Assembly: GCA_023701125.1 (NCBI GenBank)
Contig: JAMPXO010000048.1
Location: 1 to 35,258, forward strand
DNA from: Vicinamibacteria bacterium
GTDB lineage: Bacteria > Acidobacteriota > Vicinamibacteria > Fen-336
Length of the DNA: 35,258 nucleotides
Direction of reading: 5' to 3'
Part shown: in pieces, positions 9,829 to 35,120 of the stretch
Numbering within the stretch: the first letter of the stretch is position 1
How the letters are laid out: each line of letters begins with the position of its first letter
Position numbers and translations under genes: made by a program
Notes under the pieces: model-generated
Seen by the model: only the letters and a program-made list of their open reading frames with translations
Database searches by the model: none
Told to the model about the DNA's origin: nothing

Positions 9829-9873
9829 GCAGCGTGAGGAAGCCCAGTTTAGCCGGAGGTATCCTCTCCGCGC

Positions 9874-16191: not shown

Positions 16192-16207
16192 AATCGCCCC
16201 GCCCGCC

Positions 16208-19107: not shown

Positions 19108-20957
19108 CTCGGGCCGGCGCCGCGTGCGCGGCCGGCGGCGTCGAGCACCTCGCGGCACCACAGCTCGAGCATCAGCAGCGCCCACAGCCGCGGCCCGTGC
19201 TCCTCGCCGCGCTGGTGGGCGTCGATCAGCGCCTCGATCGCGACCGGGTCGAAGAAGGGACGCTGGCGGGCGCGGGTCGACAGCAGCGTGTCCCGCAGCA
19301 GGTCGCGCAGTTCGCCCCGGAACCAGGGGCCGAGCGGGATCCCGAAGCCCATCTTCTTGCGGTGCAGCAGCGCGTCCGGGACCAGCCCGGCGAGCGCCCG
19401 CTTCAGCACGATCTTGCCGGTGCCGTTGCGCAGCTTGAGGCGCTCCGGCAGGCGGGCCGCGAACTCGATAAGGCGGTGGTCGAGGAACGGGCAGCGCACC
19501 TCGAGGCTGCTCGCCATGCTGGCGATGTCGACCTTGACGAGCAGCGCCTCCGGCAGGTAGCTCATCGTCTCCACGTAGAGCGTCTTGTCGAGGAAGCCGT
19601 CCGCGGCCGCCCGGTCGTACAGCTCGCCCAGGTAGGCGTAGGTGTCGCTGCCAGCGACCGCCGCCTTCATCGCCCCGGAGTAGACGGCCTGCTTCTGCTC
19701 GGGCGTGAAGTAACTCATCATCAGGTAGTAGGGATCGCGGGACGGCTCGGCGGGCGGCGCGGGCCGACCCAGCAGCCGCCCGAGCAGGCCCGACCAGCCG
19801 GACGGCGCCGCCTGCCCCGGGTCGTAGCCGAGGTACTTGTAGCGCTCGTAACCGCCGAACAGCTCGTCGCCGCCGTCGCCGCTCAGGGCCACGGTCACCG
19901 ATTCGGCGGTCATCTTCGCCAGGTAGTAGGTGGGCAGCGCCGAGGAGTCCGCGAACGGCTCGCCGAAGTGGCGCGCGAGCTGCGGCAGGACGTCGGCGGC
20001 CACCGGTCGCACGACCTTCTCCGAGTGATCGCTGCCGACGTGCTGCGCGAGCTGGCGCGAGAAGGGAAGCTCGTCGAAGGCCCCTTCTTCGAAGCCGATC
20101 GAGAAGGTGCGCACCTGGCCGAACTCGCTCATCAGCGCCACGACGCCGCTGGAGTCGACGCCGCCCGAGAGGAACGCGCCGAGCGGCACCTCGCTCATCA
20201 GCCGGCAGCGCACGGCTTCGCGCAGCAGCGCGCGCAACTCGTCCGCAGCGTCCGCTTCGCTGATCTCCCGCTTCGGCCGATAGGACAGGTCCCAGTAGCG
20301 GCTCACCTCGACCTGGCCGTCGCGCAGCCGCAGGAAGTGCCCGGGCGGCACCTTCTTGACCCCGCGGAACGCCGAGCGGGGCGCGGGCACGTACTGGTAG
20401 GTCAGGTACAGGTGGATCGCCTCCAGGTCGGCCTCGGGCGCGAGGTCCGGCGCCTGCAGCAGCGCGCTCGGCTCGCTCGCGAAGCTGAGCCAGGTCTTGC
20501 CCTGGTGGTACCACAGCGGTTTTTTGCCGACCCGGTCGCGAGCCAGGATCAGCTCGCGCCTGCGGACGTCCCAGATCGCGAACGCGAACATCCCGACCAG
20601 CTTGCCGAGGATGTCCGTGCCGTACTGCTCGTAGCCGTGCAGCACGACCTCGGCATCGGACTTCGTGCGGAACACGTGCCCGAGCGCCAGCAGCTCCTCG
20701 CGCAGCTCGAGGTAGTTGTAGATCTCGCCGTTGAGCTCGATCCAGGCCGACTCGTCCTCGTTGGCGATCGGCTGATGGCCGCCCGCGACGTCGATGATGG
20801 ACAGTCGCCGGAACGCGAAGCCGCAGGGGCCGAGCTGGAGGACGGACCCCTCGTCGGGCCCGCGGTGGAGCTGGGCGTCGCCCATCCGCCCCAGGACCCC
20901 CGGATCGGGATGGGGTCCCCTGGCGTCGAGCGCCACCTGTCCGGCAATTCCACACAT
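19104..20957 (-). CDS. asnB: Glutamine-dependent asparagine synthetase-like amidotransferase (first copy)
   Basis: A 617-residue AsnB-family protein. Met-Cys2 begins the class II glutaminase domain (MCGIAGQVAL, HRGPDEGSV, then NGEIYNYLELREEL). The ATP-pyrophosphatase loop SGGVDSS is at 264-270, and the C-terminus keeps DGGDELFGGYERY and EVRCPFLDHRLIEFA. The start is the ATG at 20957 because Cys2 must become N-terminal; a longer open frame (to 21023) would destroy it. GAGGAC precedes the start. AsnB homologues inside O-antigen loci (for example WbpS of Pseudomonas aeruginosa) amidate uronic acids. With the WbpD-like enzyme nearby, a sugar uronamide role is more likely here than asparagine synthesis, but both are possible. 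Confidence 0.95.
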   Translation of the reverse strand: MCGIAGQVALDARGPHPDPGVLGRMGDAQLHRGPDEGSVLQLGPCGFAFRRLSIIDVAGGHQPIANEDESAWIELNGEIYNYLELREELLALGHVFRTKSDAEVVLHGYEQYGTDILGKLVGMFAFAIWDVRRRELILARDRVGKKPLWYHQGKTWLSFASEPSALLQAPDLAPEADLEAIHLYLTYQYVPAPRSAFRGVKKVPPGHFLRLRDGQVEVSRYWDLSYRPKREISEADAADELRALLREAVRCRLMSEVPLGAFLSGGVDSSGVVALMSEFGQVRTFSIGFEEGAFDELPFSRQLAQHVGSDHSEKVVRPVAADVLPQLARHFGEPFADSSALPTYYLAKMTAESVTVALSGDGGDELFGGYERYKYLGYDPGQAAPSGWSGLLGRLLGRPAPPAEPSRDPYYLMMSYFTPEQKQAVYSGAMKAAVAGSDTYAYLGELYDRAAADGFLDKTLYVETMSYLPEALLVKVDIASMASSLEVRCPFLDHRLIEFAARLPERLKLRNGTGKIVLKRALAGLVPDALLHRKKMGFGIPLGPWFRGELRDLLRDTLLSTRARQRPFFDPVAIEALIDAHQRGEEHGPRLWALLMLELWCREVLDAAGRARGAGPS

Positions 20958-20985
20958 CGGAGGTCCTCGGCCCGCACAAGCGCAG

Positions 20986-21009
20986 GGCCTGCGGATTCTC
21001 AGGCAGGCC
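20986..21009. other. Stem-loop in the divergent intergenic region
   Basis: GGCCTGC and GCAGGCC form a perfect 7-bp stem around a 10-base loop (ggattctcag). It lies 29 bases upstream of the first asnB start, within the 139-bp gap that also serves the divergent 1080-residue membrane protein. It could be a leader hairpin or an operator dyad. Confidence 0.35.
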
Positions 21010-21032
21010 TCGGGCGGGAGCAAGCCGGAGGT

Positions 21033-21096: not shown

Positions 21097-24000
21097 ATGA
21101 CTGATCGGGCGCAGAAGGTCTATCGCTGGGCGCTGGGTGGGCTGGCCCTTCTGGCGCTCGCCGTCGGGCAGACGGGGGTCCGCCGGTCGTTCGAGTTGCA
21201 GCCCTCCACGTTCCAGCCGGTCAAGGACTTGGCGTTCTCCGCCCCGCTCTCCCGGCCGGCCGTCTCGGCGGCCTCCGACTCCAACGACGATCCACAGCGT
21301 TCGTCGCTGATCCTGTTCGAGGATGGCCGGCCGCTCGGCCCGGCGCACTCGCTCCACGAGTCGATCTGGACGAAGGGGGGCGGGGCGTATTCCCACTGGG
21401 GCGACAGCGTCATCTTCTCGACCTCGGACAACTCCGACCCGCGCACCAACGGCCGGCGCTACGAAATCTCCGCGCGCGTGCCGCGCTCGGCTCTCTTCCG
21501 CGGTCTCGCCGTGGCGGCCGCCAGCGCCGCCCTGCTCGCCCTGCTCTGGCCCATGCGGGTCCGCGTGCGTGCCGCCTTGAGAGCGGGACTCGAGCCCGCG
21601 GGGTGGCTGCGGCGCGCTGGCCGGCTGGCGCTGGTCGCCGTGGCGCTCGCCCTGGCCCCGGACATCTCCACTTCCCCCGTCGCCGGCCTGACGGCCGTCG
21701 CCGCGATTGCCGGCCTCGCCGCCTACGCCGTGCGCGGGGCGTGGCGTTCCGAAGCCGCGCAGCCGCTGCCCGGCGCGTGGCCGTGGGTCTGTGCGGGCCT
21801 CTCCTTCATCGCGCCCGCGTACCTCCTGCAGTACCTGTCCACGCCGGTCGCCCCCGATTCCTTCAGCTACTGGATGCCCTGGGACCTGCTGGGCGTGCGC
21901 CTGATGACGACGCCCCCGATGCGGCCGCCGTTGCTGCCGGTGATCCATGCCCTGTTGGACGGGATCGGGGCGGAAGGGGGCGTGCTGATCGCCGGGCAGG
22001 TGATCCTGCGCGCCGTCGGGGTCCTGCTGGTCACGCGCGCGCTCGCGCGCCTGGACGCGTGGGTCGGCCTCGTGGGCGGACTGCTGCTGGCGCTGGACCC
22101 CGTGAGCGCGGGCCAGTCCCTGCAGTACCTGAGCGAGAGCGTCCACGCGTCGCTGTGGCTCGTCGTCCTGAGCCTGCTGCTGGAGATCCGCGGGCCGGCG
22201 AGGCCGCTGCCGCTCCTCTTCGGGGTCGTCCTCGGCATCGCGGGCATGGTGCGCACGATCGGGGCGCCGATCGCCGCCGCCAGCCTGGCCGCCGCTTCCG
22301 TCCTGGCGCGCTCGCGGACCTGGGTGGCGCGGACCGCGCTCGGCGTGCTGCTCGTGGTCGCGCCGGCCGCTGGCCTCAATTGGCTGCAGACGAGCCACGC
22401 CTGGGGCTCGCAGGGCCTGTACCTGGCTTTCCCGCTCTTCATCCAGAAGCAGTTCCTGGCGTCGAACGGCCCGGCCTCCCAGCGCATCCACCTCGACCTG
22501 GCCAGGTGCGGCCTGGAGGGTCTCGAGCAGCAGGTCGTGCTGAACAACTCGAACGAGAACATCCTGACCCGGTTCAATCCGTGCCTGGTCCGCGCCGCCG
22601 GCGGGGATCTCGGCCGCCTGGACCGCGACTACTCGCGGGCGTACCGCGAGGCCTGGCTCGCCCGCCCCTTCAGCTTCGCGTGGGCGACCGTGAAGGAGTC
22701 GCTGCTCTTCTTCGCCGAGCCGTTGTCGGCGGCCCTCTGGGCGGACCAGTCGTTCGCGACCCTGACCGACGTGGACGAGTTCTGCCAGCCGCGCGCGAAC
22801 GAGGCCACGCGGGGTTTCCGCGCCTTCGTGTGCCCGCTTCCTTTCCCGGCCCCGGACCCCGACCTCTGGATCTTCCGCATCTCGCGGCTGACCCGCCACG
22901 TCTATCAGCCGTACCTGCACTTCACGGAGGCGCCCTGGTCGGCGATGCCGGCGCAGGCCGAAGCCGTCGGCCTCGCCGCGCTGGCCTGGATGGCCTGGCT
23001 CGCGTTCGTCGCGCGGCCGTCGCTGCGCCCCGCGGTGCTCCTGACCTCCCTGCTGCTCGTCCTGCACGCCGTGGGCACCGCCCTGGGACAGGCGTCGATG
23101 CTGCGCTACACCGCGCCGATGGCGCCGCTGTTCCTGATCCTGACTGCCGTTTCCGTGGCGACCGTCCTCGGCAGCCTCGGCTGCCGGGTGCCGGCGGCCC
23201 TGACGCCCGCCGCTGGCGCGCCGCGGGACCGCGGCCGCCGGGTCGTGGCGATCCTGGGTCCCGCCCTGCTCGCGGCGATGGCGACGGTGGTGTCGGTCGT
23301 GACGATCGAGGTCGGCCTGCGGCTCGTGGAGCGGATGGGCACCGCGCCCCCGCCTCCGCCGACGCTGCGCCGCGACCCGCGCCTCGGCTGGAACAGCATC
23401 CCGAGCGCGACGCCGCTGGGGGAGGGGCCGGACCAGATCCTGTTCGTCGGCGACAGCTTCACCCAGTCCTCGAGTTGGCCGCGCCAGGCGCTCGACCGGG
23501 TTCGCGCCGCCGGCCGGCCCACGTTCGGCGGCTGGAACCTCGGGGTGGCCGGGTACGGCACCACCCAGGAGTGGCTCAAGACCCGCGACTGGATCAGCCA
23601 GTCGGCGGTGCGGCCGCGCGCCCTCGTGCTGCTCGTCTACCCGTGGAACGACCTGCGCGACAACCTCGCCACGCCCTCGATCTACTACAACCACCAGACC
23701 CGGCAGCGGCCCTACTGGGTCAGGAACGGCGGGGACTGGACCCTCTCCACGCCGTTCTTCTGGCCCGACTTCCTCTACAACGCGAAGCTCACGGAACGCC
23801 TCGTCCGGTTGTACGACGCGCGCGACGCTCGACGCCACCAGGCGCGGAGGGTGGACGGCGCGGCGCTCTCGGGGGGCGACCTCCGCCTCGGCTACGCGGA
23901 CCCCCGCTCCTGGGACCCGCTCTACCGGACCCAGGCCCAGGATCTCCCGTACGTGAGCGAAGCGTGGCTGAGCACCGAGCGGACGCTGGTCGAGCTCCGG

Positions 24001-24339
24001 GACCTCGCGCGAGCGGCCGGGGCGCCGCTGGTCGTGCTCGCCCTCGACAACGCGTTCACGGTGGACCAGGACGTGCTCGACCAGTGGGTGCCGCAGCGGG
24101 AGGGGTTCGACCCCTTGCTGCCGCTGGCCCGGATGGACGCGCTGACCCGCAAGCTGGGGATCGACTTCACCGACCTCCAGCCGCGGCTGCTGGCGCGCGC
24201 GCGGGCCGTGGGCGGCAAGATCTACAACGGGCCGCCCGGCAACCTGTCGGGGCACCTCGAGCCGCACGGCGACGAAGAAGTGGCGCGCGCCGCGGCCGAG
24301 GCCGTCCTGCGCGCGCTGTCGCGACCGGGAGGCGCCTGA
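21097..24339 (+). CDS. Membrane protein: 48-residue module, GT-C-like core, SGNH domain
   Basis: A 1080-residue protein with three parts. After one membrane helix (about 9-27) comes a module (core 75-122) shared with two other proteins of this locus (EDG, LGP, H..H, SHWG, SDNSDP, RRY). About ten membrane helices follow (132-745). A loop APDSFSYW with Asp254 and the segment RPPLLPVIHALLD resemble GT-C/GT39-type active-site loops. The C-terminal 300 residues are an SGNH-like domain: nucleophile Ser787 in FVGDSFTQS, and His1053 in LSGHLEPHGDEEVA, but the usual Asp of the final block is replaced. This implies a sugar transfer plus acyl transfer or removal function on the periplasmic side (inference). 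Four bases of poor Shine-Dalgarno (GGGGAAATG) precede the ATG. The stop is two bases before the next gene. Confidence 0.88.
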   Translation: MTDRAQKVYRWALGGLALLALAVGQTGVRRSFELQPSTFQPVKDLAFSAPLSRPAVSAASDSNDDPQRSSLILFEDGRPLGPAHSLHESIWTKGGGAYSHWGDSVIFSTSDNSDPRTNGRRYEISARVPRSALFRGLAVAAASAALLALLWPMRVRVRAALRAGLEPAGWLRRAGRLALVAVALALAPDISTSPVAGLTAVAAIAGLAAYAVRGAWRSEAAQPLPGAWPWVCAGLSFIAPAYLLQYLSTPVAPDSFSYWMPWDLLGVRLMTTPPMRPPLLPVIHALLDGIGAEGGVLIAGQVILRAVGVLLVTRALARLDAWVGLVGGLLLALDPVSAGQSLQYLSESVHASLWLVVLSLLLEIRGPARPLPLLFGVVLGIAGMVRTIGAPIAAASLAAASVLARSRTWVARTALGVLLVVAPAAGLNWLQTSHAWGSQGLYLAFPLFIQKQFLASNGPASQRIHLDLARCGLEGLEQQVVLNNSNENILTRFNPCLVRAAGGDLGRLDRDYSRAYREAWLARPFSFAWATVKESLLFFAEPLSAALWADQSFATLTDVDEFCQPRANEATRGFRAFVCPLPFPAPDPDLWIFRISRLTRHVYQPYLHFTEAPWSAMPAQAEAVGLAALAWMAWLAFVARPSLRPAVLLTSLLLVLHAVGTALGQASMLRYTAPMAPLFLILTAVSVATVLGSLGCRVPAALTPAAGAPRDRGRRVVAILGPALLAAMATVVSVVTIEVGLRLVERMGTAPPPPPTLRRDPRLGWNSIPSATPLGEGPDQILFVGDSFTQSSSWPRQALDRVRAAGRPTFGGWNLGVAGYGTTQEWLKTRDWISQSAVRPRALVLLVYPWNDLRDNLATPSIYYNHQTRQRPYWVRNGGDWTLSTPFFWPDFLYNAKLTERLVRLYDARDARRHQARRVDGAALSGGDLRLGYADPRSWDPLYRTQAQDLPYVSEAWLSTERTLVELRDLARAAGAPLVVLALDNAFTVDQDVLDQWVPQREGFDPLLPLARMDALTRKLGIDFTDLQPRLLARARAVGGKIYNGPPGNLSGHLEPHGDEEVARAAAEAVLRALSRPGGA

Positions 24340-24341
24340 CA

Positions 24342-26249
24342 ATGTGCGGCATCGTCGGCGTCGTCTTCGCGGATCCGCTGCGGCCGCCTTCGCCCGCGAC
24401 CGAGGCGGCGCTGGCGCGCGCGGTCGACGTGATGTCCCACCGCGGCCCCGACGGGGAGGGCCGGGTGTCCGCGACCGGCATGGCGTTCGGGCACCGTCGG
24501 CTGTCGATCATCGACCTCGCCAGCGGCGGCCAGCCCATGCGCTACCAGCAGGGCCGGTACGTGATCACGTTCAACGGCGAGATCTACAACTACCGCCAGT
24601 TGCGCGACACCCTGCTGGGCCTCGGTCACGAGTTCGCGACGGCCAGCGACACCGAGGTGGTGCTGGCCGCGTACGCGCAGTGGGGCGAGGCGATGCCGGC
24701 GCGGCTGCGCGGCATCTTCGCGTTCGCGATCTGGGACTCGGTGGACCGCCGCGCTTTCCTGGCGAGGGATCACCTGGGCGTCAAGCCGCTGCTGTACCTC
24801 GAGCGCGCGGGCGAGTCGCTGGCCTTCGGCTCGGACCTGAAGAGCCTGCTCGTGCTCGGTGGCGATCGCCTCGGCATCGACCCGGAAGCGCTCTCCGACT
24901 ACCTGGCGGCCGGCTATCCGCAGTCGAACCGCACGATCGTGCGCGAGGTGCGCCGCCTCGAGCCGGCGCAGTTCCTGGTCTACGAGCGGGGGCGAGCGCG
25001 GATCGGCTCCTACTGGGACCTGGCGGAGTGCTACCGCGCGCCCAGGATCCAGGGCCGCCTGCCCGAACTGGCGCTCGCCTTCGAGGAGAAGTTCGCCGAC
25101 AGCGTGCGCGCGCAGATGGTCAGCGACGTGCCGGTCGGCGCGTTCCTCAGCGGGGGCCTGGACTCGTCCTCGGTGGTCGCCCAGATGCGCCGGCGGCAGC
25201 CGGGCGAGTTGTTCACGTTCAGCATGGGCTTCGCCGAGAAGACGTTCAGCGAGCTCGACCACGCGCGGGAAGTCGCCCATCACTTCGGCACTCGCCACGT
25301 CGAAGACGTCGCCAGCCCCGATCCCGTCGACTGGGCGGACTTCGCGTGGCGGATCGGCGAGCCGCTCGGCGACACGTCGCTGATCCCCACCTTCCTGGTC
25401 TCGGGGCTGGCTCGGCAGCACGTCAAGGTCGTGCTCAGCGGGGACGGCGCGGACGAGTGCCTCGCCGGCTACGACACGTACGTCGCCGACAAGCTCCATG
25501 GCGCCTACCGGTGGGTCCCCTCGCTGCTCCATCGCCACCTGATCACGCCGCTGGCCGCGCTGCTGCCACACTCGGGCCAGAAGGTCGGGCTCGATTACAA
25601 GATCCGGCAGTTCGTGCGGTTCGGCCAGGCCGCATTCCCCAGGGCCCACTTCGGATGGCGGGAACTGTTCGACGCGGAGGAGCGGCTCCAGCTCGGGACG
25701 GAGCCCGCGCACGCGCCGTGGGCGCACGTGGAGGCGACCATGGGCGAGCTGGCGGGCGCCTCGCGCCTCGACCAGACGCTGTACTCCGACACCAAGACGT
25801 GGCTTGCCAACGACATCCTGACCAAGGTGGACAGGGCGACGATGGCCGTGGGCCTCGAGGCGCGCGTGCCGTTCCTGGACCCGGATCTCGTGGAGTTCTG
25901 CGCGCGGCTGCCGGTGGAGGCCAAGATGAAGGGCTTTTCGAGGAAACGAGTGCTGAGAACGACAGCGACGAAAGACCTGCCGAAGTCGATCCTGGAGCGA
26001 CCGAAGAGCGGCTTCAACGCGCCGGTCTCGCGCTGGCTGCGAGGCTCGCTCGGAGGCACGCTCGAGGACCTCGTCGGCCGCACGAAGCTGATCGACGGCC
26101 GCTCGCCGCGGCTCCGGCAGTTGATCCAGGAGCACGGTTCGGGCCTGCGGGACCACGGCTTCAAGCTGTGGTCGCTGACCGCCCTGCTGCTGTGGGAGCG
26201 CGAGGTCTGGGATCGCACGGCCGGGACCACGGCCGTGGGAGGAGCATGA
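24342..26249 (+). CDS. asnB: Glutamine-dependent asparagine synthetase-like amidotransferase (second copy)
   Basis: A 635-residue AsnB-family protein. Cys2 starts the glutaminase domain (MCGIVGVVFAD, MSHRGPDGEG, then NGEIYNYRQLRDTL). The pyrophosphatase loop SGGLDSS is at 270-276, followed by SGDGADECLAGYDTY. The C-terminal part has ANDILTKVDRATMAVGLEARVPFLDP. It belongs to a different branch from the first copy (different N-terminal spacing, DGADECLAG against DGGDELFGG), so it is not a recent duplicate. It begins two bases after the 1080-residue protein and its stop overlaps the next start (ATGA). In this context it probably amidates a uronic acid or another carboxyl of a glycan precursor rather than making free asparagine (inference). 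Confidence 0.95.
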   Translation: MCGIVGVVFADPLRPPSPATEAALARAVDVMSHRGPDGEGRVSATGMAFGHRRLSIIDLASGGQPMRYQQGRYVITFNGEIYNYRQLRDTLLGLGHEFATASDTEVVLAAYAQWGEAMPARLRGIFAFAIWDSVDRRAFLARDHLGVKPLLYLERAGESLAFGSDLKSLLVLGGDRLGIDPEALSDYLAAGYPQSNRTIVREVRRLEPAQFLVYERGRARIGSYWDLAECYRAPRIQGRLPELALAFEEKFADSVRAQMVSDVPVGAFLSGGLDSSSVVAQMRRRQPGELFTFSMGFAEKTFSELDHAREVAHHFGTRHVEDVASPDPVDWADFAWRIGEPLGDTSLIPTFLVSGLARQHVKVVLSGDGADECLAGYDTYVADKLHGAYRWVPSLLHRHLITPLAALLPHSGQKVGLDYKIRQFVRFGQAAFPRAHFGWRELFDAEERLQLGTEPAHAPWAHVEATMGELAGASRLDQTLYSDTKTWLANDILTKVDRATMAVGLEARVPFLDPDLVEFCARLPVEAKMKGFSRKRVLRTTATKDLPKSILERPKSGFNAPVSRWLRGSLGGTLEDLVGRTKLIDGRSPRLRQLIQEHGSGLRDHGFKLWSLTALLLWEREVWDRTAGTTAVGGA

Positions 26250-26992
26250 ACAAGCCGAACGCCGTATCCGACGGGGTGCCGCTGGGCAGCGATACGCTCT
26301 CGCCGTCGCTGCGCCACGCCACGAACTACTACGCCTGGATCGCCGAGCAGTTCCAGGCGACGCTCGGCCGCCGGGTGCTGGACATCGGCGGCGGGCTCGG
26401 GCCGCTGCTGGACCACGTCGTCGCCGAGTCGCGGGAGATCCTCTCCGTGGACCTCGACGCCGGCGCCGTCGAGGAGATCCGCGCGCGGTTCGTGGACCAG
26501 CCCTCGGTGACGTCGCGGGTGTGCAACATCCTCGACGACCAGGACCTGGCCGGCCTGATCGCGGCGAAGTTCGATTCGATCCTGTGCGTGAACGTGCTGG
26601 AGCACATCGAGGACGACGCCGCCGCGCTGCGGGCGATGGCCCGGGTGCTGCCCGCCGGGGGAGTGCTCAACCTGCTGGTGCCGGCCCACCCCTTCCTCTA
26701 CGGCACGCCCGACTCGCTCGCGGGGCATCACCGGCGGTACCGGCGCCGGGACCTGACCCGGCTCGTCGAGCAGGCCGGCTTCTCGGTGCAGCGGGCCTAC
26801 TTCTTCAACGGCTTCGGCGCCATTCCCTATTTCCTGAACGCGCGCATCCTGCGGCCCAAGAGCCTGTCTGGAGCGGTCGACACGCAGATAGTCGTGTACG
26901 ATCGCTACTTCGTGCCGGTGCTGCGGAAACTGGAGCGCTGGGGCCGGCCCCCGTTCGGCCAGTCCCTCGTCGTCGTGGGTCAGAAAGCGTGA
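26246..26992 (+). CDS. Class I SAM-dependent methyltransferase
   Basis: A 248-residue methyltransferase. Motif I is RRVLDIGGGLGPLL (about 42-55), the acidic residue after strand 2 is in SVDLDAG, and CVNVLEHIEDDAAALR is the post-I/motif II region of the Methyltransf_11/23 group, followed by VLPAGGVLNLLVPAHP. The C-terminus has GHHRRYRRRDLTRLVEQAGF, commonly seen in enzymes near sugar and glycan genes. The start is the ATG at 26246 overlapping the AsnB stop, with GGAGG just upstream. The stop overlaps the GT2 gene (GTGA), so the three are translationally coupled. The acceptor is probably a sugar hydroxyl or carboxyl. Confidence 0.92.
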   Translation: MNKPNAVSDGVPLGSDTLSPSLRHATNYYAWIAEQFQATLGRRVLDIGGGLGPLLDHVVAESREILSVDLDAGAVEEIRARFVDQPSVTSRVCNILDDQDLAGLIAAKFDSILCVNVLEHIEDDAAALRAMARVLPAGGVLNLLVPAHPFLYGTPDSLAGHHRRYRRRDLTRLVEQAGFSVQRAYFFNGFGAIPYFLNARILRPKSLSGAVDTQIVVYDRYFVPVLRKLERWGRPPFGQSLVVVGQKA

Positions 26993-27882
26993 CTGCCATC
27001 AAGCTAACCGTCCTGATTCCCGCCTACAACGAAGAGGCGGCGATCGCAGAAACGGCCCACCGCGTCCAGGCCGCTCTCGCGGCATCGGACGGCGCCGCCG
27101 AGATCATCGTCATCAACGACGGCTCGTCGGACGGGACCGGTGCGGCCGCCGCGGCGGCCGGGGTGAAGGTGCTCCACCACCCGATCAACGGCGGCTACGG
27201 CCGCGCGCTGAAGACGGGGGTCCGGGCCGCCACGGGGGACTGGATCGCGATCGTCGACGCGGACGGCTCGTACCCGATCGAGAAGCTGCCCGAGCTGCTG
27301 GCCGACGTGCCGGCCTTCGACATGGTCGTCGGCGCGCGCCAGGGGGCCAACTACAAGGGCTCCTTCATGAAGTGGCAGGGCCGCAAGGCGCTGACGGCGC
27401 TGGTCAAGTTCGTCACGGGCGTCGACGTCCCGGACGTCAACTCCGGGATGCGGGTGTTCCGCAAGAGCGTCGCGCTCGAGAACCTGGACCGCTTCAGCAA
27501 CGGCTTCTCGTTCACGACGACGCTGACGCTTGCCATGTTCAACCAGGGCTACTTCGTGAAGTACGTGCCGATCCACTACGCGGCGCGCATCGGCAAGAGC
27601 AAGGTCCGGATGGGTCGCGACACGTTGCGCACGATCCAGATCCTGGTGATGGCGATCCTCGCCTACAACCCGATCAAGCTGTTCCTGGCGATCTGCGCCA
27701 TGACGGCAGGGGTGGGCGTCCTCGGCGCCGGCTTCGTGACGTTCTCGCTGGGGCCGGGCGCCGGCGTGTTCCTGCTGACGCTGGTCGCGGCCAGCGTCGC
27801 GGTGCTGTTCGGCATGGGCCTCGTCTGCGATCTGCTGCGCCGCCCCTCGAAACCCGCCGAGCTCGAGCGACAGCGGGCGTGA
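26989..27882 (+). CDS. GT2 glycosyltransferase, DPM1/GtrB-like
   Basis: A 297-residue family 2 glycosyltransferase. LTVLIPAYNEEAAIAETAHR begins the GT-A domain, VINDGSSDGT carries the first Asp, and DADGSYP (90-96) the metal-binding DXD-type triplet. NGGYGRALKTGVRAATGDW is the usual linking segment. Membrane helices follow from about 215 (NPIKLFLAICAMTAGVGVLGA and FLLTLVAASVAVLFGMGLV), as in polyprenyl-phosphate glycosyltransferases. Start GTG at 26989 overlaps the methyltransferase stop. Together with the GT2 at 16208 the locus has two enzymes able to make lipid-linked sugars, in line with several GT-C-like proteins that would use them. Confidence 0.92.
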   Translation: MTAIKLTVLIPAYNEEAAIAETAHRVQAALAASDGAAEIIVINDGSSDGTGAAAAAAGVKVLHHPINGGYGRALKTGVRAATGDWIAIVDADGSYPIEKLPELLADVPAFDMVVGARQGANYKGSFMKWQGRKALTALVKFVTGVDVPDVNSGMRVFRKSVALENLDRFSNGFSFTTTLTLAMFNQGYFVKYVPIHYAARIGKSKVRMGRDTLRTIQILVMAILAYNPIKLFLAICAMTAGVGVLGAGFVTFSLGPGAGVFLLTLVAASVAVLFGMGLVCDLLRRPSKPAELERQRA

Positions 27883-27884
27883 CC

Positions 27885-28703
27885 ATGGCCACTTCGCGCG
27901 ATTCGGCGTTGCGAGAGAAGTCGATCAGCGACTTCGGCGAGCAGTGGACCGAGTTCACCCGCAACGAGGGCTACTACGCTTCGGCCGAGCTGCTGCGCGA
28001 CATCGTGGAGCCGCTGCTCCCGGTCTCCGCGGTGCGCGGCGCGCGGGTGGCGGACATCGGCAGCGGCACGGGCCGGATCGTCCGCATGCTCGCCGACGCG
28101 GGCGCCGCGAGCGTCGTGGGCGTCGAGCCGTCGGAAGCGTACGGCGTGCTCGTGAAGAACGTCGCGGACCTGGGAGAGCGCGTCACCTGCGTGCGTGGCA
28201 GGGGTGAGGCCCTGCCCGGCGACCAGGCCTACGACCTGGCGTTCTCGATCGGGGTGTTGCACCACATTCCCGATCCCGGGCCGGTGGTGCGCCGCATCCA
28301 CGAGGCCCTCCGCCCCGGCGGCCGGGTCCTGATCTGGCTGTACGGCCTCGAGGGCAACGGGCTGTACCTGGCCGTGGCCCGGCCGCTGCGGGCCGTGACC
28401 CGGCACCTGCCGCACGGCCTGCTCAACGCCACCGTCCAGCTGCTGGACCTGCCGCTCCGCGCCTACATCGCAGCCTGCCGCCGCCTCGGTTCGCTGCCGC
28501 TGGCCGAGTACATGCGCGGGCACCTGGGCAAGCTCGACACTTACGCGCGGCGGCTCACCATCTACGACCAGCTCAACCCGGCGTGGGCGAAGTACTACTC
28601 GCGCAGCGAGGCGGAGGCCCTCCTCGCCGATGCGGGCTTCGTCGACGTCCGGAGCCATCACCGTCACGGATACAGCTGGACTGTCATCGGGACCCGGGCC
28701 TAG
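27885..28703 (+). CDS. Class I SAM-dependent methyltransferase
   Basis: A 272-residue methyltransferase. Motif I is RVADIGSGTGRIVRML (54-69), then GVEPSEAYGVL for motif II, SIGVLHHIPDPGPVVR and ALRPGGRVLIWLYG. The GVLHHIPDP string and the later LPLAEYMRGHLGKLDTYARRLTIYDQLNP place it in a Methyltransf_11-type group found with O-antigen genes. The ATG at 27885 is preferred; a GTG at 27879 overlapping the GT2 stop (GTGACCATG) would add two residues. The substrate is unknown. Confidence 0.9.
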   Translation: MATSRDSALREKSISDFGEQWTEFTRNEGYYASAELLRDIVEPLLPVSAVRGARVADIGSGTGRIVRMLADAGAASVVGVEPSEAYGVLVKNVADLGERVTCVRGRGEALPGDQAYDLAFSIGVLHHIPDPGPVVRRIHEALRPGGRVLIWLYGLEGNGLYLAVARPLRAVTRHLPHGLLNATVQLLDLPLRAYIAACRRLGSLPLAEYMRGHLGKLDTYARRLTIYDQLNPAWAKYYSRSEAEALLADAGFVDVRSHHRHGYSWTVIGTRA

Positions 28704-28718
28704 TCGCCCGTGATCCCG

Positions 28719-28740
28719 GGCCCGCGGATCGAACGGGCCT
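28719..28740 (+). terminator. Possible hairpin in the 56-bp gap before the TylF-like gene
   Basis: GGCCCG (28719-28724) pairs with CGGGCC (28734-28739) around nine bases, followed by TCTTGG. It is in the largest gap of the otherwise tightly packed plus-strand run. Without a longer T-run it is only a weak terminator or attenuator candidate. Confidence 0.3.
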
Positions 28741-28759
28741 CTTGGAACTGTAGCGGCGC

Positions 28760-29638
28760 TTGATCACGAGAATCCTGAGGCGACTGAGAGCCGCCGCCAC
28801 GGCGCTGGCCGGGGGCGAGCCGGAGAGGGCGCCCGCCGAGCCCGCCGCGAACGCCCGCCAGGCGCTGGCGGCGGCCCTGCCGTTGCCGCTGCTCGAGCTG
28901 CTGGCGCGCGGCCTCGAGCCCGAGCTGCCAGAGGTAGAGCGGTACCGGATCGCCGAGGGCCTCTCCACGGCCGTCTATCCCCAGTACAAGTTCAGCGAGT
29001 ACGGACGCATCTTCCTCGACGACCGCGAGTTCCTCGCGGCGTACGAGCGGTTCATGGACGCCGGCAACTGGCACTCCCTCGACCGCAAGTACACCCTCGT
29101 CCAGTTGCTGAAGCTGGCGCTCGACCTGCCCGGAGACGTCGCGGAGTGCGGCGTGTACAAGGGGGGATCGGCCTGGCTGATGTGCCAGGCGATCCGGCCG
29201 GTCGGCAAGGTCAACCACCTGTTCGATTCGTTCGAGGGCCTGTCGCAGCCCGGCCCCGATGACGGGACCTACTGGAGCCCGGGCGGACTCCGCATCGACG
29301 AGAGCGTCGTGCGCCGGAACCTCGCCGAGTTCGACAACGTGGAGTTCCACAAGGGCTGGTTCCCCGCGCCTTTCGAGGCCGTGCGCGAGCGCCGCTTCGC
29401 GTTCGTCCACGTCGATGTCGACCTGTTCCAGCCGACCCTCGACGCGCTGGAGTTCTTCTACCCGCGCCTCGTTGAGGGCGGCGTGATGTTGTTCGACGAC
29501 TACGGCTTCGTCACCTGCCCGGGAGCCCGCCTCGCCGTCGACCAGTTCTTCGAGAGCCGGCCCGAGCGGGTCGCCCTGCTGCCGACGGGCCAGGCCTTCG
29601 TCGTCAAGAAGGCCGAGCGCCCGTCCGCCGCGAGCTAG
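28760..29638 (+). CDS. TylF/MycF-like O-methyltransferase
   Basis: A 292-residue protein of the macrocin-O-methyltransferase (TylF) family, metal-dependent enzymes that methylate sugar hydroxyls. DVAECGVYKGGSAWLMCQ is motif I. HLFDSFEGLSQPGPDDG and FVHVDVDLFQPTLDALEFF follow, with the acidic metal ligands at HVDVD and in LFDDYGF. The first 75 residues are an arginine/alanine-rich leader not typical of the family. The start is taken as TTG at 28760, since no ATG or GTG lies in frame before the conserved part begins; there is no Shine-Dalgarno, so the true start is uncertain. It is 18 bp ahead of the FkbM-like gene. Confidence 0.88.
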   Translation: MITRILRRLRAAATALAGGEPERAPAEPAANARQALAAALPLPLLELLARGLEPELPEVERYRIAEGLSTAVYPQYKFSEYGRIFLDDREFLAAYERFMDAGNWHSLDRKYTLVQLLKLALDLPGDVAECGVYKGGSAWLMCQAIRPVGKVNHLFDSFEGLSQPGPDDGTYWSPGGLRIDESVVRRNLAEFDNVEFHKGWFPAPFEAVRERRFAFVHVDVDLFQPTLDALEFFYPRLVEGGVMLFDDYGFVTCPGARLAVDQFFESRPERVALLPTGQAFVVKKAERPSAAS

Positions 29639-29656
29639 AGGGGACCTTCACCGGCC

Positions 29657-30520
29657 ATGCTCAGCACCAAGCAGAAGATCGCGATCGCCCGCCTGGCCCA
29701 GGCCGTGGTGATGGCCGCCCGCCGCCTCGCAGGGCTGGGCGCGGAGACCCACGTGACGAGGAACGGCGCTCGCTTCGCGCTCGACCTGCGCGAGGGCATC
29801 GACTTCTCGATCTGGCTGCTCGGCACGTTCGAGCCGGAGACGGTGCGCTGCTATCAGCAACTGCTGCGGCCGGGGAACGTCGTGCTGGACATCGGGGCCA
29901 ACGTCGGAGCGCACACCCTGTTCCTGGCCCGCGCCGTGGGCGAGACGGGGCGGGTGGTCGCGATCGAGCCCACCGATTACGCGTTCTCGAAGCTGTCCGC
30001 CAACTGCGCGCTCAACCCCGAGCTGGCGGAACGCATCCAGTGCGTGCAGGCGATGCTGGTGGCCTCGGAAGACGGCGCTCCGGAGACGCCGCGGCTGTAC
30101 TCGAGCTGGCCGCTGGCGGAGGAGCGGGAACTCCACGGCATTCACCAGGGCCGGCTGATGACGACGTCGGGCGCCCGCGCCCGGACCCTCGACTCGGTCG
30201 CGCGCGAGCTGGCGCTGGACCGGGTCGACTGCATCAAGCTCGACATCGACGGCTTCGAGTGCGGGATGATCCGTGGCGCCGGCGAGGTGCTCGAGCGCTG
30301 GCACCCGACGATCGTCATGGAACTCGCTCCCTACGCGCTTCGCGAGCAGGGGGAGAGCCTGCACGCATTGCTCGGGCTGCTGGCCGGGCACGGCTACGCG
30401 CTGTTCGACATGGCGACGGGGGAGCCCCTGTCGCCGGACGCCGCCGTGCTCGAGGCCCGGATTCCGCAGGGCGCCAGCTGGAACGTGCTGGCGCGAGCGG
30501 CAGGTACCGTCTCGGCCTGA
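29657..30520 (+). CDS. FkbM family methyltransferase
   Basis: A 287-residue FkbM-type SAM-dependent methyltransferase. GNVVLDIGANVGAHTLFLAR (about 73-92) is the characteristic motif I, VVAIEPTDYAFSKLSAN is motif II, and CIKLDIDGFECGMIRGA is the family's later KxDIDGxE motif. The first 45 residues are helical and basic. Family members methylate hydroxyls on glycans or macrolides. The start is the ATG at 29657, 18 bp after the TylF-like stop. The stop TGA is two bases from the stop of the convergent gene, so there is no terminator between them. Confidence 0.94.
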   Translation: MLSTKQKIAIARLAQAVVMAARRLAGLGAETHVTRNGARFALDLREGIDFSIWLLGTFEPETVRCYQQLLRPGNVVLDIGANVGAHTLFLARAVGETGRVVAIEPTDYAFSKLSANCALNPELAERIQCVQAMLVASEDGAPETPRLYSSWPLAEERELHGIHQGRLMTTSGARARTLDSVARELALDRVDCIKLDIDGFECGMIRGAGEVLERWHPTIVMELAPYALREQGESLHALLGLLAGHGYALFDMATGEPLSPDAAVLEARIPQGASWNVLARAAGTVSA

Positions 30521-30522
30521 CC

Positions 30523-33201
30523 TCAGCGCCCGGCGCTGTCGACGCGCGAGAGCGACGCGGCCTGGAAGAAGGGCTCCCGATCGGCCCGGCCCGTGCTGAA
30601 GGTTCCACAAACGGCGGCCCGGCCAGTGGGGCCGGGCTCGGTGCCGGGGGGCAGGACGAGCCACACGGCGAGCCCCGTCGACAGGTCGACCGTCGCCGTC
30701 AGCACGGCCCCGGGCCGTAGCCGCGCGGTGTCCGAGTTGAGGAAGTAGCCAAACGTCGGGCGCAGGTCGCGCCTGCGGACGCGGGTGGCCGGAGCCGTCG
30801 CGCTCGCGTCGTCCGTGATCGCCAGGTACGCGCCTTCCGGGATGTCGACCAGCAGCGCCCGCTCCCCCGCGGGGCAGCCGGGCAGCGGGGGCTTCGGGCC
30901 TCGCCCCGACCACATCAGGCCGATCGGGCCGAGCATCACGACGGCCGTCAGCCCCAGCGCCAGGTGTTGCGCCAGCGGGCCCGGGGCCGCGGACGGCACG
31001 GCCGCCTCGGGAGCGGCGGCCGACCGCGGACCGAAACGCCGGACCAGTTCCGCGAGGGCGGCGAACGGCACGGCGACGCCGGTCGCGGTCAACAACGCGA
31101 CCAGCGGCATCGTCGCGGCGTAGACGCGGAGGCCGGCATCTCCGGGCGGCAGGAACGGAATCGACAGCAGGTGCCCGGCGGCGCCGAACAGCAGCACGCC
31201 GCTCATGGGCTTTCGGAAGCGCACGGCGCAGGCGATCAGCCCCAGAGCCGCCAGCGCGTAACACGTGGCCTGGAACTCGGGCGAGCGCACGCCGTCGACC
31301 ACGAACGCGAAGGCGTGGTAGCGCGATCCGGTCAGGCCGAGGTACTCCTCCAACGCCCGGGCGCCGCCTTCGATCAGGCCCATGGGCCGCGCCTGGAACG
31401 CCTGCCACGCCAGCGCGTAGATCTCTCCGCCTTCCCGGGCCTCGGGGTGGTCCACCAACACCTGGTTCCAGCCCTTGCCGCCGACGACCAGCCCGTAGAT
31501 CACGTACGAGAAGTTGGAGAACGCCTGTTGTTCGTTGGTCGGCCTGGCGAGGACCTTGACGAGGGCGAGGCTCAGCAGCGAGGCGACGAGCACCGACGCG
31601 AGCGCGCCGGCACCGATCCGCAGGCGAGCGGGACGGTGCCGGAACTCCCAGACGGCCGCAGCGACGAGCGCCGGCAGCACGAAGAAGGCGCCGGCTCGCG
31701 CCATCAGGGCCAGGGTCAGGAGCCCGAGGCCGACGCAGTAGCCGCGGGGGTCGTCCGTGCGCACGCCGCGCGCGATCGCCGCCAAAGCCAGGGCGCCCAT
31801 CGCCAGCCCGAGGTTCTCGGTCAGCGTGGTGCCGAGGCCACCGTCGACCCGGTAGAACAGGAAGAGCAGCACGAGCGCGGCGGCCCCTGCGATCGGGCCG
31901 AGACTGGCCCGCCACTCGCGGGCGAGCAGGAACGCCGCGACGGCGTTGAGCAGCACCATCAGAGCGATGCTCAGTTGCAGGTTGCGGTCGGTGGCCGCCA
32001 GCAGGGTCGAGAGCAGGCCGACGAACAACGGTCGCCGCGACGACCAGCCGAGTGGCTCGCCCGACAGCAGGCGCAGGGCGTCGGCGTAGTAACCGCCGGC
32101 GTCCGAGGCCGGGAGCAGGCCGCCCACGGCGCTCGAGTGATTGACGACGTCCTGCCAGAGGGCCCGGAGCGGGAGCGCGAACAGGACCACGGCGATGGCC
32201 AGCGCGCCCACGGTGCCGAGCCAGCTCCTCCGGTACAGGAGCAGCGCCACCGGAACGCCCGCCCAGGTCAGGACCGGCAGCGTCAGGTGGTACGAGTCCG
32301 CCAGCAGCGACGGCGGCAACTCCACGAGCAGGGCCGCGGCGAACAGCGCGGGCACGACGGCCAGCGCGACGATCCGCAGCCCCCTGCCGCTCGGGCCCGG
32401 GGTCTCGAACGGCGCGTGGACCTGGTCCAGTGCCCGCGCGAGACGGGCGGAGCCGGAGGCGACGAGGTCGACCACGACCTGGCCCGCGAGCGCAAGGCCG
32501 GGCTGCGAGAGCGCTCGTCCGCCCCGCACCGCCAGCACCCCGGAGGTGAGAAGGGCGACGCTCCAGACGCCCAACTCGAAGACGGGGTCGACCCCGGTCC
32601 ACTCCAGGCCCCACGTCGATCCCGCCGTGAAGGCGCAGGCGCCACCGCCGATGGCCGTCATCAGGGCCGTGGCCCGGCGCGGCAGGCTCGGGTCGGGGAG
32701 GAGCCACGGCCGCCACCGCCGGCTCGCGAGCAGGACGCAGGCGATCCATGCCCAGAGCACCGACATCGGCAGCGTGGCCGCCGTCTCGACGAGGTAGCGC
32801 CGCCCGTTGGCGCGTGGGTCGGTCCGGTCGGAGGACGAGAAATAGAGGACCTCGCCCCAGTGCGAGAAGCGCCCGCGGCCGTTTGCGCGAAGGCCCTCGT
32901 GCTCGGTGTGGGCCGGGCCGAGTGGCACGCCGTCCTCCAGCACGGAGGCCGCCGAGTGTCTCGGCCGCTCCGGGCTGTCCCCCTCTGCCGCGAGCAGGGG
33001 CAGCAGCCGCGAGGGCCGCATGGGCGCGACGAAACCCTCGCCCGCGTCGCGTCGAATCGACTCCGGGGCGAGGGGCTGCCGCTCGGGCACGCCCCACCCG
33101 AGGCCGCACACGATGGGGACCAGGCTGAACGCCAGCAACCGCGCCGCGCGCAGCACCCGTTGGCGCGCCTCGGCGGGCGCCAGCGGGGCGGCCGCGGTCA
33201 T
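30523..33201 (-). CDS. Membrane protein with the 48-residue module and GT-C-like core
   Basis: An 892-residue protein. One membrane helix (about 20-37) is followed by the shared module (core 89-136: EDG, LGP, H..H, SHWG, SSDRTDP, NGRRY). About twelve membrane helices run from 145 to 770. The loop LPASDAGGYYADALR, then SSRRPLFVGLLSTLL, is the counterpart of APDSFSYW and RPPLLPVIHALL in the 1080-residue protein, so the two are distant paralogues. The C-terminal 120 residues (DIPEGAYLAITDDASATA onward) form a beta-rich soluble tail in place of the SGNH domain. The start ATG at 33201 overlaps the upstream methyltransferase stop (ATGA). Probably a polyprenyl-phosphate-sugar-dependent transferase (inference). 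Confidence 0.85.
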   Translation of the reverse strand: MTAAAPLAPAEARQRVLRAARLLAFSLVPIVCGLGWGVPERQPLAPESIRRDAGEGFVAPMRPSRLLPLLAAEGDSPERPRHSAASVLEDGVPLGPAHTEHEGLRANGRGRFSHWGEVLYFSSSDRTDPRANGRRYLVETAATLPMSVLWAWIACVLLASRRWRPWLLPDPSLPRRATALMTAIGGGACAFTAGSTWGLEWTGVDPVFELGVWSVALLTSGVLAVRGGRALSQPGLALAGQVVVDLVASGSARLARALDQVHAPFETPGPSGRGLRIVALAVVPALFAAALLVELPPSLLADSYHLTLPVLTWAGVPVALLLYRRSWLGTVGALAIAVVLFALPLRALWQDVVNHSSAVGGLLPASDAGGYYADALRLLSGEPLGWSSRRPLFVGLLSTLLAATDRNLQLSIALMVLLNAVAAFLLAREWRASLGPIAGAAALVLLFLFYRVDGGLGTTLTENLGLAMGALALAAIARGVRTDDPRGYCVGLGLLTLALMARAGAFFVLPALVAAAVWEFRHRPARLRIGAGALASVLVASLLSLALVKVLARPTNEQQAFSNFSYVIYGLVVGGKGWNQVLVDHPEAREGGEIYALAWQAFQARPMGLIEGGARALEEYLGLTGSRYHAFAFVVDGVRSPEFQATCYALAALGLIACAVRFRKPMSGVLLFGAAGHLLSIPFLPPGDAGLRVYAATMPLVALLTATGVAVPFAALAELVRRFGPRSAAAPEAAVPSAAPGPLAQHLALGLTAVVMLGPIGLMWSGRGPKPPLPGCPAGERALLVDIPEGAYLAITDDASATAPATRVRRRDLRPTFGYFLNSDTARLRPGAVLTATVDLSTGLAVWLVLPPGTEPGPTGRAAVCGTFSTGRADREPFFQAASLSRVDSAGR

Positions 33202-33995
33202 CCGCGCGGGCTCGCCGTCGCCGCGGTCGGGACGCGCCGCAGCACGATCGTCGCGAACATCGCGAGCTGCCCCATCAGCGGCTGGAGCGCGCGCTCCAGC
33301 CCGCGCCAGGCCCCGTAGCTCCAGCCGGGCATCAGGCTGCGCAGCGAGACGCCGCCCGAGACCAGGTAGCAAAACGGCATGCCGGGGCGGATCACCTCGA
33401 TCCGCCACGCCGGGAACTCGCGCTCGAAGGTCGCGCGGTCGCGCTCGAACACGATCCAGGGCAGGGCGCCGTTGGCCCCCGACAGCGGCCCGGTGGTGGC
33501 GAACTCCCAGCGCGGGGCCTCCGGCAGGAACGGCTCGTGGTGGAAGCTGCCGTAGACGAAGCGCGACCAGGGCGTCACCCACGGCTCGACCAGCACCATC
33601 GCGCCGTCCTCGCGCACCGCTTCCGTCGCTTCCGCGAAGAAGCGGCGGACGTCCGGGACGTGGTGCAGCACGTCGGTCATCACGATCGCCCGCAGGCTGC
33701 GGGGAGCGAATGGCAGGTGGCAGCCGTCCAGCACCACGCTCATGTCGGGACAGTGGAAGATCTCGGAGCGGATCACGTCCGGCACGTGCTCGTGCAGGAA
33801 GCCGGCCCCGGAGCCGAGTTCCAGCACCCGCCCCGGCCCGGGCGGCAGGTGACGCGCGACGTCGGAGTACCACTCCTCGTAGATCCGCCGCAGGAACGGC
33901 TTGGTGGCGATCACCTGGCGCCGCACGTGAGTCGTGGCAGGAGAGTCGAGCGGCAGACCCCGGGTGAGCGGATTTTCGAGCAGTCGTTTGATCAT
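33198..33995 (-). CDS. Class I SAM-dependent methyltransferase
   Basis: A 265-residue methyltransferase. GRVLELGSGAGFLHEH (55-70) is motif I. AIVMTDVLHHVPDVRRFFAEA is the Methyltransf_11-type middle motif, and VREDGAMVLVEPW follows. The C-terminal half contains FHHEPFLPEAPRWEFATTGPLSGANGALPWIVF, a pattern of an uncharacterised methyltransferase branch I have seen near polysaccharide genes. It starts at the ATG at 33995, with only a weak Shine-Dalgarno, and overlaps the next gene by ATGA. The 63-bp region to the divergent module-bearing gene must contain both promoters. The substrate is unknown. Confidence 0.9.
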   Translation of the reverse strand: MIKRLLENPLTRGLPLDSPATTHVRRQVIATKPFLRRIYEEWYSDVARHLPPGPGRVLELGSGAGFLHEHVPDVIRSEIFHCPDMSVVLDGCHLPFAPRSLRAIVMTDVLHHVPDVRRFFAEATEAVREDGAMVLVEPWVTPWSRFVYGSFHHEPFLPEAPRWEFATTGPLSGANGALPWIVFERDRATFEREFPAWRIEVIRPGMPFCYLVSGGVSLRSLMPGWSYGAWRGLERALQPLMGQLAMFATIVLRRVPTAATASPRG

Positions 33996-34058
33996 GGGAG
34001 CCGGGCGCGAGCGGGCCGCAGGCCGAAATGTTAGCCTTTTTCCTTTCCTGGAGGGCCC

Positions 34059-35120
34059 TTGGGTTTCGGACGACCGGTCGCGTTTCCCCTCCTCCGAGAG
34101 CACGCGCGCCGGCCGTGGTCCGGGCACGCGATCTGCCTCGGCCGGGCGGACGTCCACTTCGGGCACGAGGCGCTGCTGAAGATGGCGGGGCTGACCGGCG
34201 CCCGCCTCGACCCGGGCGTGGCGCCGACGCCGTCGCACCGTGACGACCTGGCGGCCCGCGGCTGCATCTCGGACCGCAGCCTGTTCGCGGCGCTCGGCTT
34301 CGCCAGGCTGTCGACCCTCGACCTCAGCAACTTCGAAGGCGCGGAGATCCAGTTCGACCTCAACTCGGCGGAGTTGCCGGCGTCGCTCCAACAGGTCTGC
34401 GACGCGGTCTTCGACCACGGCACGATGGAGCACGTCTTCCACGTGCCCCACTTCTTCGCCAACGTGCACGGGATGCTGAAGGTCGGCGGCCGGGTCGTGC
34501 ACTGCTCGCCCACCGCGAACTGGATCGACCACGGCTTCTACATGTTCTCGCCCACGTTGTTCCTCGACTTCTACGAGGCCAACGGCTGGCGGGTCCACGC
34601 GCTCGAGATCGTGCGCTTCGACCCGCAGAAGCAGGACGCCGAGACGCCCTTCTTCGCCCGCTACGAGCCGGGCGTGCGCATCCCGCCGCCGTCCGAGCAC
34701 GAGTCCTTCCTGACGGTGTGCATCGCCGAGAAGCTGGAGCACAGCACCGCCGGGGTCGTGCCCCAGCAGGGCTATTACCGTCGCACCCCGGGCTGGCAGG
34801 AGGAGGCGGAACCCGAGGGCCTGACGACGCTGGCGCTGCGGCCACCGTTCCAGCCCGCGGGCGGCAACTGCTGGCTGGCCGACCTGAGCCGCCTCGCCGC
34901 GGACCGCGGCGACTCGATGACCGAGCCGCAGCGCTCGCCGCTGCGCGTGCTGGAGGACGGCACGCGACTGGGACCGGGGCACAGCGTCCACGACACGATC
35001 CGCACCACCGGCCGCGGCCGCTACAGCCACTGGGGCCAGACGCTCTACTTCTCGACGAGCGACAACTCCGACCCCAACTCGAACCGCCGCCGCTACGAGG
35101 TGAAGGTCCGCCCGGCCTGA
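34059..35120 (+). CDS. Methyltransferase-like protein with C-terminal 48-residue module
   Basis: A 353-residue protein. Residues 1-285 are a methyltransferase-like fold. The usual glycine-rich loop is replaced by HAICLGRADVHFG, but LDLSNFEGAEIQFDLNSA, CDAVFDHGTMEHVFHV and LKVGGRVVHCSPT fit the strands and motif of an atypical class I branch with HGFYMFSPTLFLDFYEANGW. After an internal Met287, residues 299-346 are the shared module (EDG, LGP, H..H, SHWG, SDNSDP, RRY), and the protein ends seven residues later. The start is a TTG with GGAGGG three bases upstream; an in-frame TAG at 34032 rules out anything longer. This copy has no signal peptide or membrane helix, unlike the other two, so the module here should be cytoplasmic. 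Confidence 0.85.
   Translation: MGFGRPVAFPLLREHARRPWSGHAICLGRADVHFGHEALLKMAGLTGARLDPGVAPTPSHRDDLAARGCISDRSLFAALGFARLSTLDLSNFEGAEIQFDLNSAELPASLQQVCDAVFDHGTMEHVFHVPHFFANVHGMLKVGGRVVHCSPTANWIDHGFYMFSPTLFLDFYEANGWRVHALEIVRFDPQKQDAETPFFARYEPGVRIPPPSEHESFLTVCIAEKLEHSTAGVVPQQGYYRRTPGWQEEAEPEGLTTLALRPPFQPAGGNCWLADLSRLAADRGDSMTEPQRSPLRVLEDGTRLGPGHSVHDTIRTTGRGRYSHWGQTLYFSTSDNSDPNSNRRRYEVKVRPA

Follow-up and report, generated by a model that had tools for sequence, protein, structure and literature searches.

Analysis of a 35,258-nucleotide stretch of DNA from a Vicinamibacteria bacterium (contig JAMPXO010000048.1 of assembly GCA_023701125.1, referred to here as the window) revealed that three proteins encoded in a presumed polysaccharide locus share a domain of about 95 residues, which is undescribed in the family libraries and the literature that we searched and which probably constitutes a glycan-recognition (carbohydrate-binding) module. 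An earlier note on this DNA had pointed to a 48-residue repeat shared by two membrane proteins of 1,080 and 892 amino acids and a methyltransferase-like protein of 353 amino acids. The segments are translated from positions 21319-21462 (plus strand), 32794-32937 (minus strand) and 34953-35096 (plus strand) and correspond to residues 75-122, 89-136 and 299-346 of the respective proteins. The coordinates, the reading frames and the identity of 24 out of 48 positions in all three segments were confirmed, and the ungapped 48-residue pair scores of 170, 176 and 178 were far beyond the maxima of 62, 34 and 40 obtained with 100 shuffles per pair. When one of the copies was searched against the whole genome (5.4 Mb in 254 contigs, one of which is the entire window), the other two copies were recovered with E values of 2.5 × 10−17 and 7.8 × 10−17, and the next match had an E value of 0.12. 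The limits of 48 residues, however, turned out to be too short. Comparison with other genomes revealed a conserved N-terminal part (e.g., PF.P.GG..W...LP......D....S), and the repeat thus makes up the C-terminal half of a larger domain, which spans some 95 to 100 amino acids. A profile of the full unit (A4) recovered three complete domains among the open frames of the window with E values from 1 × 10−31 to 1 × 10−38, the profile having been built with these copies included; beyond the three domains, the family profile gave no match below an E value of 7 in the window.

The structure prediction of the isolated module, for which the earlier note had called, yielded a confident fold. For the domain alone, AlphaFold2 returned a mean predicted local distance difference test score (pLDDT) of 95.6 and a predicted template modeling score of 0.88, based on an alignment of 108 copies in which the 3 window copies were joined by 105 out of 121 candidates (of the 16 stretches left out, most had inserts or were truncated or divergent). 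The predicted fold is rich in strands (residues 2-5, 17-20, 40-44, 67-70, 73-76 and 91-95) and contains one helix (residues 56-61). Six residues, E44, G63, G65, D80, P84 and Y91, are invariant in 108 out of 108 copies, and S38, H56, S68, H69, W70, F76, S77, S79, D83, N87, G88 and R89 are conserved in at least 90 % of them, although such values are inflated, the scan having used a pattern made from the same motif and kept the best 80 matches only. We propose H56, S68, H69, W70, D80, D83, N87 and R89 (domain numbering) as a putative ligand site. The residue that follows the SDP motif is N or R in 41 and 25 cytoplasmic hosts versus 13 and 50 exported hosts, respectively (Fisher p of 2.5 × 10−6); this statistic ignores kinship and depends on a crude classification by hydropathy, and no conclusion is drawn from it.

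In agreement with the earlier claim that the domain has no name, searches with the 108 members gave nothing under an E value of 0.07 in Pfam and nothing under 0.05 in NCBIfam. One named family considered was Fn3_assoc (PF13287), together with the chitobiase C-terminal domains; it produced a subthreshold match on the SDGSDP loop of one member (residues 82-105, E value of 0.32, 11.6 bits against a gathering score of 23), and in all it matched two out of 108 members, with a best E value of 0.18. No description of the domain was found in the literature by motif or by topic, where a description under other words would be missed. A sequence search of the PDB (hmmsearch, profile A4) gave one unrelated chain at an E value of 1.4 and hence no recognizable solved relative. 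In the structural comparison by VIA-align, the nearest chains were parts of two glycosidases, XylC of glycoside hydrolase family 120 (GH120; 3vst, Z of 8.2 over 91 residues, root mean square deviation of 3.2) and BT_1002 (5mqp, Z of 7.7 over 85 residues, root mean square deviation of 3.0), the latter from family GH141; both values are at a level that possibly reflects just a common arrangement, and the identity to the domain is 18 % and 11 %, respectively. The immunoglobulin-like beta-sandwich of XylC is inserted into the core domain of the enzyme and helps to organize the active site (PMC6887791), whereas the present domain is a mobile terminal module. In a paper on GH141 (PMC12786026), no sandwich terms were found.

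In the window, the gene for the 1,080-residue protein (21097-24339, plus strand; delimited by its open reading frame and hydropathy) carries the full domain at 21181-21480, which corresponds to residues 40-139 of the open frame beginning at 21064. By hydropathy, no hydrophobic segment is called before the domain and 10 are called after it; inspection by eye, nevertheless, revealed a short N-terminal hydrophobic stretch under the hydropathy threshold. The protein has no Pfam match, and its C-terminal stretch contains a GDS motif and resembles SGNH hydrolases by eye. In the 892-residue protein (30523-33201, minus strand; also from open reading frame and hydropathy), a profile match places the full domain at 32779-33084 (residues 414-515 of the open frame 30526-34323), in the order one N-terminal helix, domain and about 12 more hydrophobic segments. 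This protein gives a weak glycosyltransferase signal below the cutoff (PMT_2, E value of 0.017). In its AlphaFold2 model, which is poor overall (pLDDT of 49) and was used for the N-terminal helix, the domain and the second helix only, the domain is formed by residues 38-143 with high pLDDT and is flanked by helices at 10-36 and 146-167. The third gene (34059-35120, plus strand; open reading frame and hydropathy) encodes the 353-residue protein, whose Pfam matches to methyltransferases (E values of 0.01 to 0.08) are all below the cutoff and which lacks a transmembrane segment; its C-terminal domain (34830-35111, profile match to residues 266-359 of the open frame from 34035) ends 2 residues ahead of the stop. 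In both membrane hosts, several Arg or Lys residues precede the N-terminal hydrophobic stretch, which suggests that their domains lie outside the cytoplasm. The contig ends 138 bases past the third host gene (position 35258), so that the locus is cut off and further copies are possible.

The domain is attached to many unrelated enzymes. In 118 nonredundant host frames, it is located near the N terminus in 62, near the C terminus in 35 and otherwise in 21, and it often starts about 10 residues from the N terminus, stops 1 to 5 residues from the C terminus or closely trails a helix. A simple hydropathy rule, which misses some signal peptides, was applied to 127 hosts, those of the window and of viral loci among them. 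It found no membrane segment in 70, a helix or signal ahead of the domain in 34, the order helix-domain-helices in 13 and the domain followed by helices in 10. Pfam was used to identify partner families in the 62 N-terminal hosts as well as in the others except L102 (55 of 56), and the counts that follow refer to the families listed, 25 of 29 and 25 of 50, respectively. Among these, pectate lyases were found in at least 9 of the 62 N-terminal hosts, with Pedobacter among the carriers, and MocA-type oxidoreductases in at least 5. Methyltransferases accounted for at least 7 N-terminal and at least 5 other hosts, radical S-adenosylmethionine (SAM) proteins, including a radical SAM/SPASM form, for at least 5 and at least 3, and sulfatases for at least 1 and at least 2. 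In the remaining 55 hosts, PcRGLX rhamnogalacturonan lyases occurred at least 4 times, ATP-binding cassette (ABC) ATPases at least 3 times and GT61, FkbM and Stf0 sulfotransferase at least twice each. Glycosyl transferases group 1 are also among the partners. Collectively, the partners are unrelated in fold, and the recognizable ones are mainly glycan enzymes or modifiers of glycans or small molecules. The proposal that the domain marks glycan-assembly proteins therefore holds in so far as its hosts are glycan related; it does not hold for assembly alone, since the pectate and rhamnogalacturonan lyases and the sulfatases have the domain as well.

Particularly informative are polysaccharide-export ATPases and proteins without a recognized enzyme. 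The C-terminal beta-sandwich domain of Wzt is proven to bind the polysaccharide cap and recognizes the capped O antigen before export (PMC9445017). In locus L049, an ABC ATPase (positions 9098-10192; ABC_tran at residues 61-192) carries the present domain at its C terminus and has no Wzt_C match at an E value of 0.001, and its gene adjoins an ABC2_membrane gene. The beta-rich domain hence occupies in this locus the same place as Wzt_C (PF14524), C-terminal to an export-type ATPase beside a Wzm-type permease, in one architecture of many. By sequence, the two domains are nevertheless distinct. Three ATPases (L080, L082 and L034) carry both side by side in the order ATPase, domain and Wzt_C, with the Wzt_C match outside the present domain, which has its own conserved core and is attached to many other enzymes. 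Wzt_C was also not among the 5 Pfam families listed for the 108 members at E values up to 10; the VIA-align neighbor list, which contained no Wzt domain, excludes nothing. These export-ATPase architectures point to polysaccharide recognition. Two proteins of 332 (L046) and 365 (L074) residues consist of three domains and little besides, the latter without a Pfam match; several proteins of 134 to 194 residues (e.g., L051, L076, L099, L108, L147 and L154) consist of one helix and the domain, and a protein of 229 residues (L153) of two helices and the domain. A binding role suits such forms better than catalysis does.

Contrary to the earlier assumption, the domain is not confined to one locus; numerous bacterial phyla contain it, and so do giant viruses. 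A collection of 84,980 species genomes was scanned with a pattern derived from the motif, the best 80 matches being kept. This gave 186 confirmed stretches, from which 76 loci were retained; the carriers belong to Alphaproteobacteria, Planctomycetota, Pedobacter and its relatives, Armatimonadota, Chloroflexi, Acidobacteriota, Verrucomicrobiota and others. Its presence is sparse, patchy and wide: 4 out of 100 relatives, 6 out of 193 genomes of the class and 3 out of 396 genomes of the phylum carry it (the source genome counted in each), as do 13 out of 294 genomes of Planctomycetota, the phylum of L043, including three already known carriers. One genome of the same phylum as the source, not listed in the same class, contains 8 matches on three contigs, and the hosts scanned there include radical SAM, FkbM and Wzt-type proteins. 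A Foldseek search of predicted viral structures revealed five giant-virus relatives (E values from 5.7 × 10−12 to 9.4 × 10−9, TM scores of 0.80 to 0.92, 31 to 42 % identity). Their hosts, in Hyperionvirus and Harvfovirus, are labeled as galacturonosyltransferase-like, glutamine amidotransferase type 2, radical SAM, methyltransferase and uncharacterized proteins, i.e., much the same enzyme kinds as the bacterial hosts.

Further occurrences concern putative phages and a plasmid. An IMG/VR contig (L148) encodes at positions 4341-5258 a methyltransferase-like protein that ends in the domain and has relatives in L149-L152; its gene adjoins genes that by eye resemble phage tailspike and lysozyme genes, and some phages thus appear to carry the domain, even though it was not found in a search of phage records. 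Four 13-residue matches in phage-structural-like proteins, obtained in a scan of viral contigs, were rejected as chance. The sole plasmid record found was pDCAR1 of Solidesulfovibrio carbinolicus, in which an SGNH/GDSL protein bears the domain (L146, positions 14791-16482) within an island of asnB, glycosyltransferases, transposases and recombinases; the island is a possible vehicle of domain transfer.

Glycan genes also occur in the genomic surroundings of the domain. With a crude form of gene finding, neighbors were recorded in 67 loci for 121 out of 135 candidate proteins, 14 having been excluded by a size limit; six additional loci from genomes already represented were left aside. Next to these 121 proteins, we counted glycosyl transferases group 1 in 15 cases, GDP-mannose dehydratase/epimerase in 11, ABC2_membrane in 6, DegT in 4 and GT2 in 3. 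Clustering was followed in 35 whole genomes, taken from 37 of the 76 loci, two of which share a genome; the genomes were chosen as hit carriers, some are incomplete, and they describe carriers only. They contain 114 matches in 97 host genes, and 20 of them have at least two host genes. In these 20 genomes, 61 of the 82 host genes are located within 20 kb of another, and in 16 at least one such pair exists. A single host gene was found in the other 15, including the isolates of L041, L048, L104 and L110, which suggests that the domain does not need a second domain-bearing protein.

The occurrence of three copies within 14 kb of the window could be taken as an ordinary local gene duplication, in which one lineage recently copied the segment into three proteins, and the best match in the own locus is indeed somewhat more frequent than random, at 6 of the 78 copies in loci with two or more host proteins (7.7 % versus 2.2 %). 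A little local kinship therefore exists. However, for the other 72 copies the best match lies in another locus, and each window copy is closer to copies elsewhere, namely 57 % to L042 (Sedimenticola), 52 % to L095 (Planctomycetia) and 52 % to L050 (Magnetospirillum), than to its window neighbors (41 to 49 %). Moreover, a tree of 134 rows and 98 columns, which is poorly resolved (78 of its 131 inner branches are open) and was used for this point only, does not place the window copies in one group, the two membrane hosts are dissimilar outside the domain (best ungapped score of 40), and the domain is spread over many phyla. The tree and the nearest-match counts refute recent local duplication as the sole explanation, which we regard as extremely improbable. 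Hence, neither of the two findings that the earlier note had named as fatal, a match to a named family or a recent local duplication, was obtained. Rather, loci seem to acquire their copies far more by gathering already-fused genes than through local copying of the domain. The clustering would also suit a homotypic docking domain, whose copies bind one another and thereby tie the enzymes of a locus into a complex, and export-ATPase, methyltransferase and sulfotransferase partners would be fitting members of it. Nevertheless, we consider docking rather unlikely, as 15 of the 35 carrier genomes (some incomplete) revealed a single host gene, the mean identity of copies is hardly higher within loci than between them (42.6 % versus 41.0 %), and cytoplasmic and exported hosts of one locus cannot meet.

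We favor glycan recognition as the probable function, a reading also supported by the two nearest solved chains, which are parts of glycosidases at marginal Z values. Like a carbohydrate-binding module (CBM), the domain is small and independent, resides on lyases and other glycan enzymes and occurs in tandem, and its discrete predicted fold is contiguous within pectate lyases, PcRGLX proteins and glycosyltransferases. It differs from the CBM class in that many of its hosts are soluble biosynthetic enzymes without an export signal, on which CBMs are not typical. Several further observations weigh against glycan recognition. The invariance of the core is unusual for a module that meets many glycans and would also suit a common ligand or a structural role; cytoplasmic and secreted hosts would need a shared type of ligand; the best E value of Foldseek against the PDB was 0.13 and the Z values of VIA-align are at a level called common; the neighbor counts stand without scanned control regions; transglutaminase-like (at least 3 of 62) and PhyH (at least 1 of 55) partners are not obviously glycan active; and many hosts have no Pfam match. 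Two other explanations draw on the same data. That the best structural neighbors are parts of XylC and BT_1002 would agree with a structural domain that, like the XylC insert, completes the neighboring catalytic site without binding glycan on its own; this seems unlikely to us, though slightly less so than docking, since the domain sits on many unrelated catalytic folds at either end and since forms without any recognized catalytic domain exist. The strong invariance across phyla and the position next to the first membrane helix in many hosts could, on the other hand, reflect recognition of a carrier or common headgroup, such as a polyprenyl-pyrophosphate-linked glycan, instead of the sugar chain itself. 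However, pectate and rhamnogalacturonan lyases carry the domain, and secreted degrading lyases meet no carrier of that type, which makes this explanation quite improbable.

The domain is an independent, mobile and beta-rich unit, often attached flush at the N or C terminus of an enzyme or displayed just after the first membrane helix. If glycan recognition is correct, it would guide the enzyme to the polysaccharide made or degraded by the locus, or would let the enzyme select that polysaccharide. In the window, the presumably cytoplasmic methyltransferase-like host would read the glycan inside the cell, and the domains of the two multipass hosts would probably face the periplasmic side, so that the same or a related glycan may be recognized on two sides of the membrane. 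A further-reaching idea, which we put forward more tentatively, is that the domain acts as a "polysaccharide tag reader": one module placed on the transferases, the methylating and sulfating enzymes, the export ATPase and the surface enzymes of one pathway, so that each of them, on either side of the membrane, would work on the same nascent polymer. Whole glycan loci would have carried the module across bacterial phyla and into giant viruses, where its hosts are enzymes of the same kinds. The earlier interpretation as a whole thus survives in its independent domain, its invariant polar and aromatic residues and a plausible role in glycan recognition, and it fails in the confinement to one locus, the marking of assembly only and the 48-residue limits.

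Two further features of the window deserve mention. The gene for the 1,080-residue protein is flanked by two asparagine-synthase-like genes, one at 19104-21023 (minus strand), which matches Asn_synthase and GATase_7, and one at about 24340-26249 (plus strand), assigned by eye; neither carries the domain, unlike a glutamine amidotransferase protein of a giant virus. A gene for tRNA-Leu (caa) is located at 9744-9828 on the minus strand, between housekeeping-like genes and the presumed polysaccharide region.

A domain so conserved and widely shared, yet unnamed in the family libraries tested, would help to tell from sequence which members of a glycan locus work on a common polymer, many proteins without any family match among them. 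Glycan-recognition modules are known chiefly from degradation and from Wzt; if the present domain binds glycan, one recognition module would serve biosynthesis, export and degradation alike. It would make the sharing of substrates among the enzymes of a locus directly testable, and it links glycan genes of giant viruses to those of bacteria.

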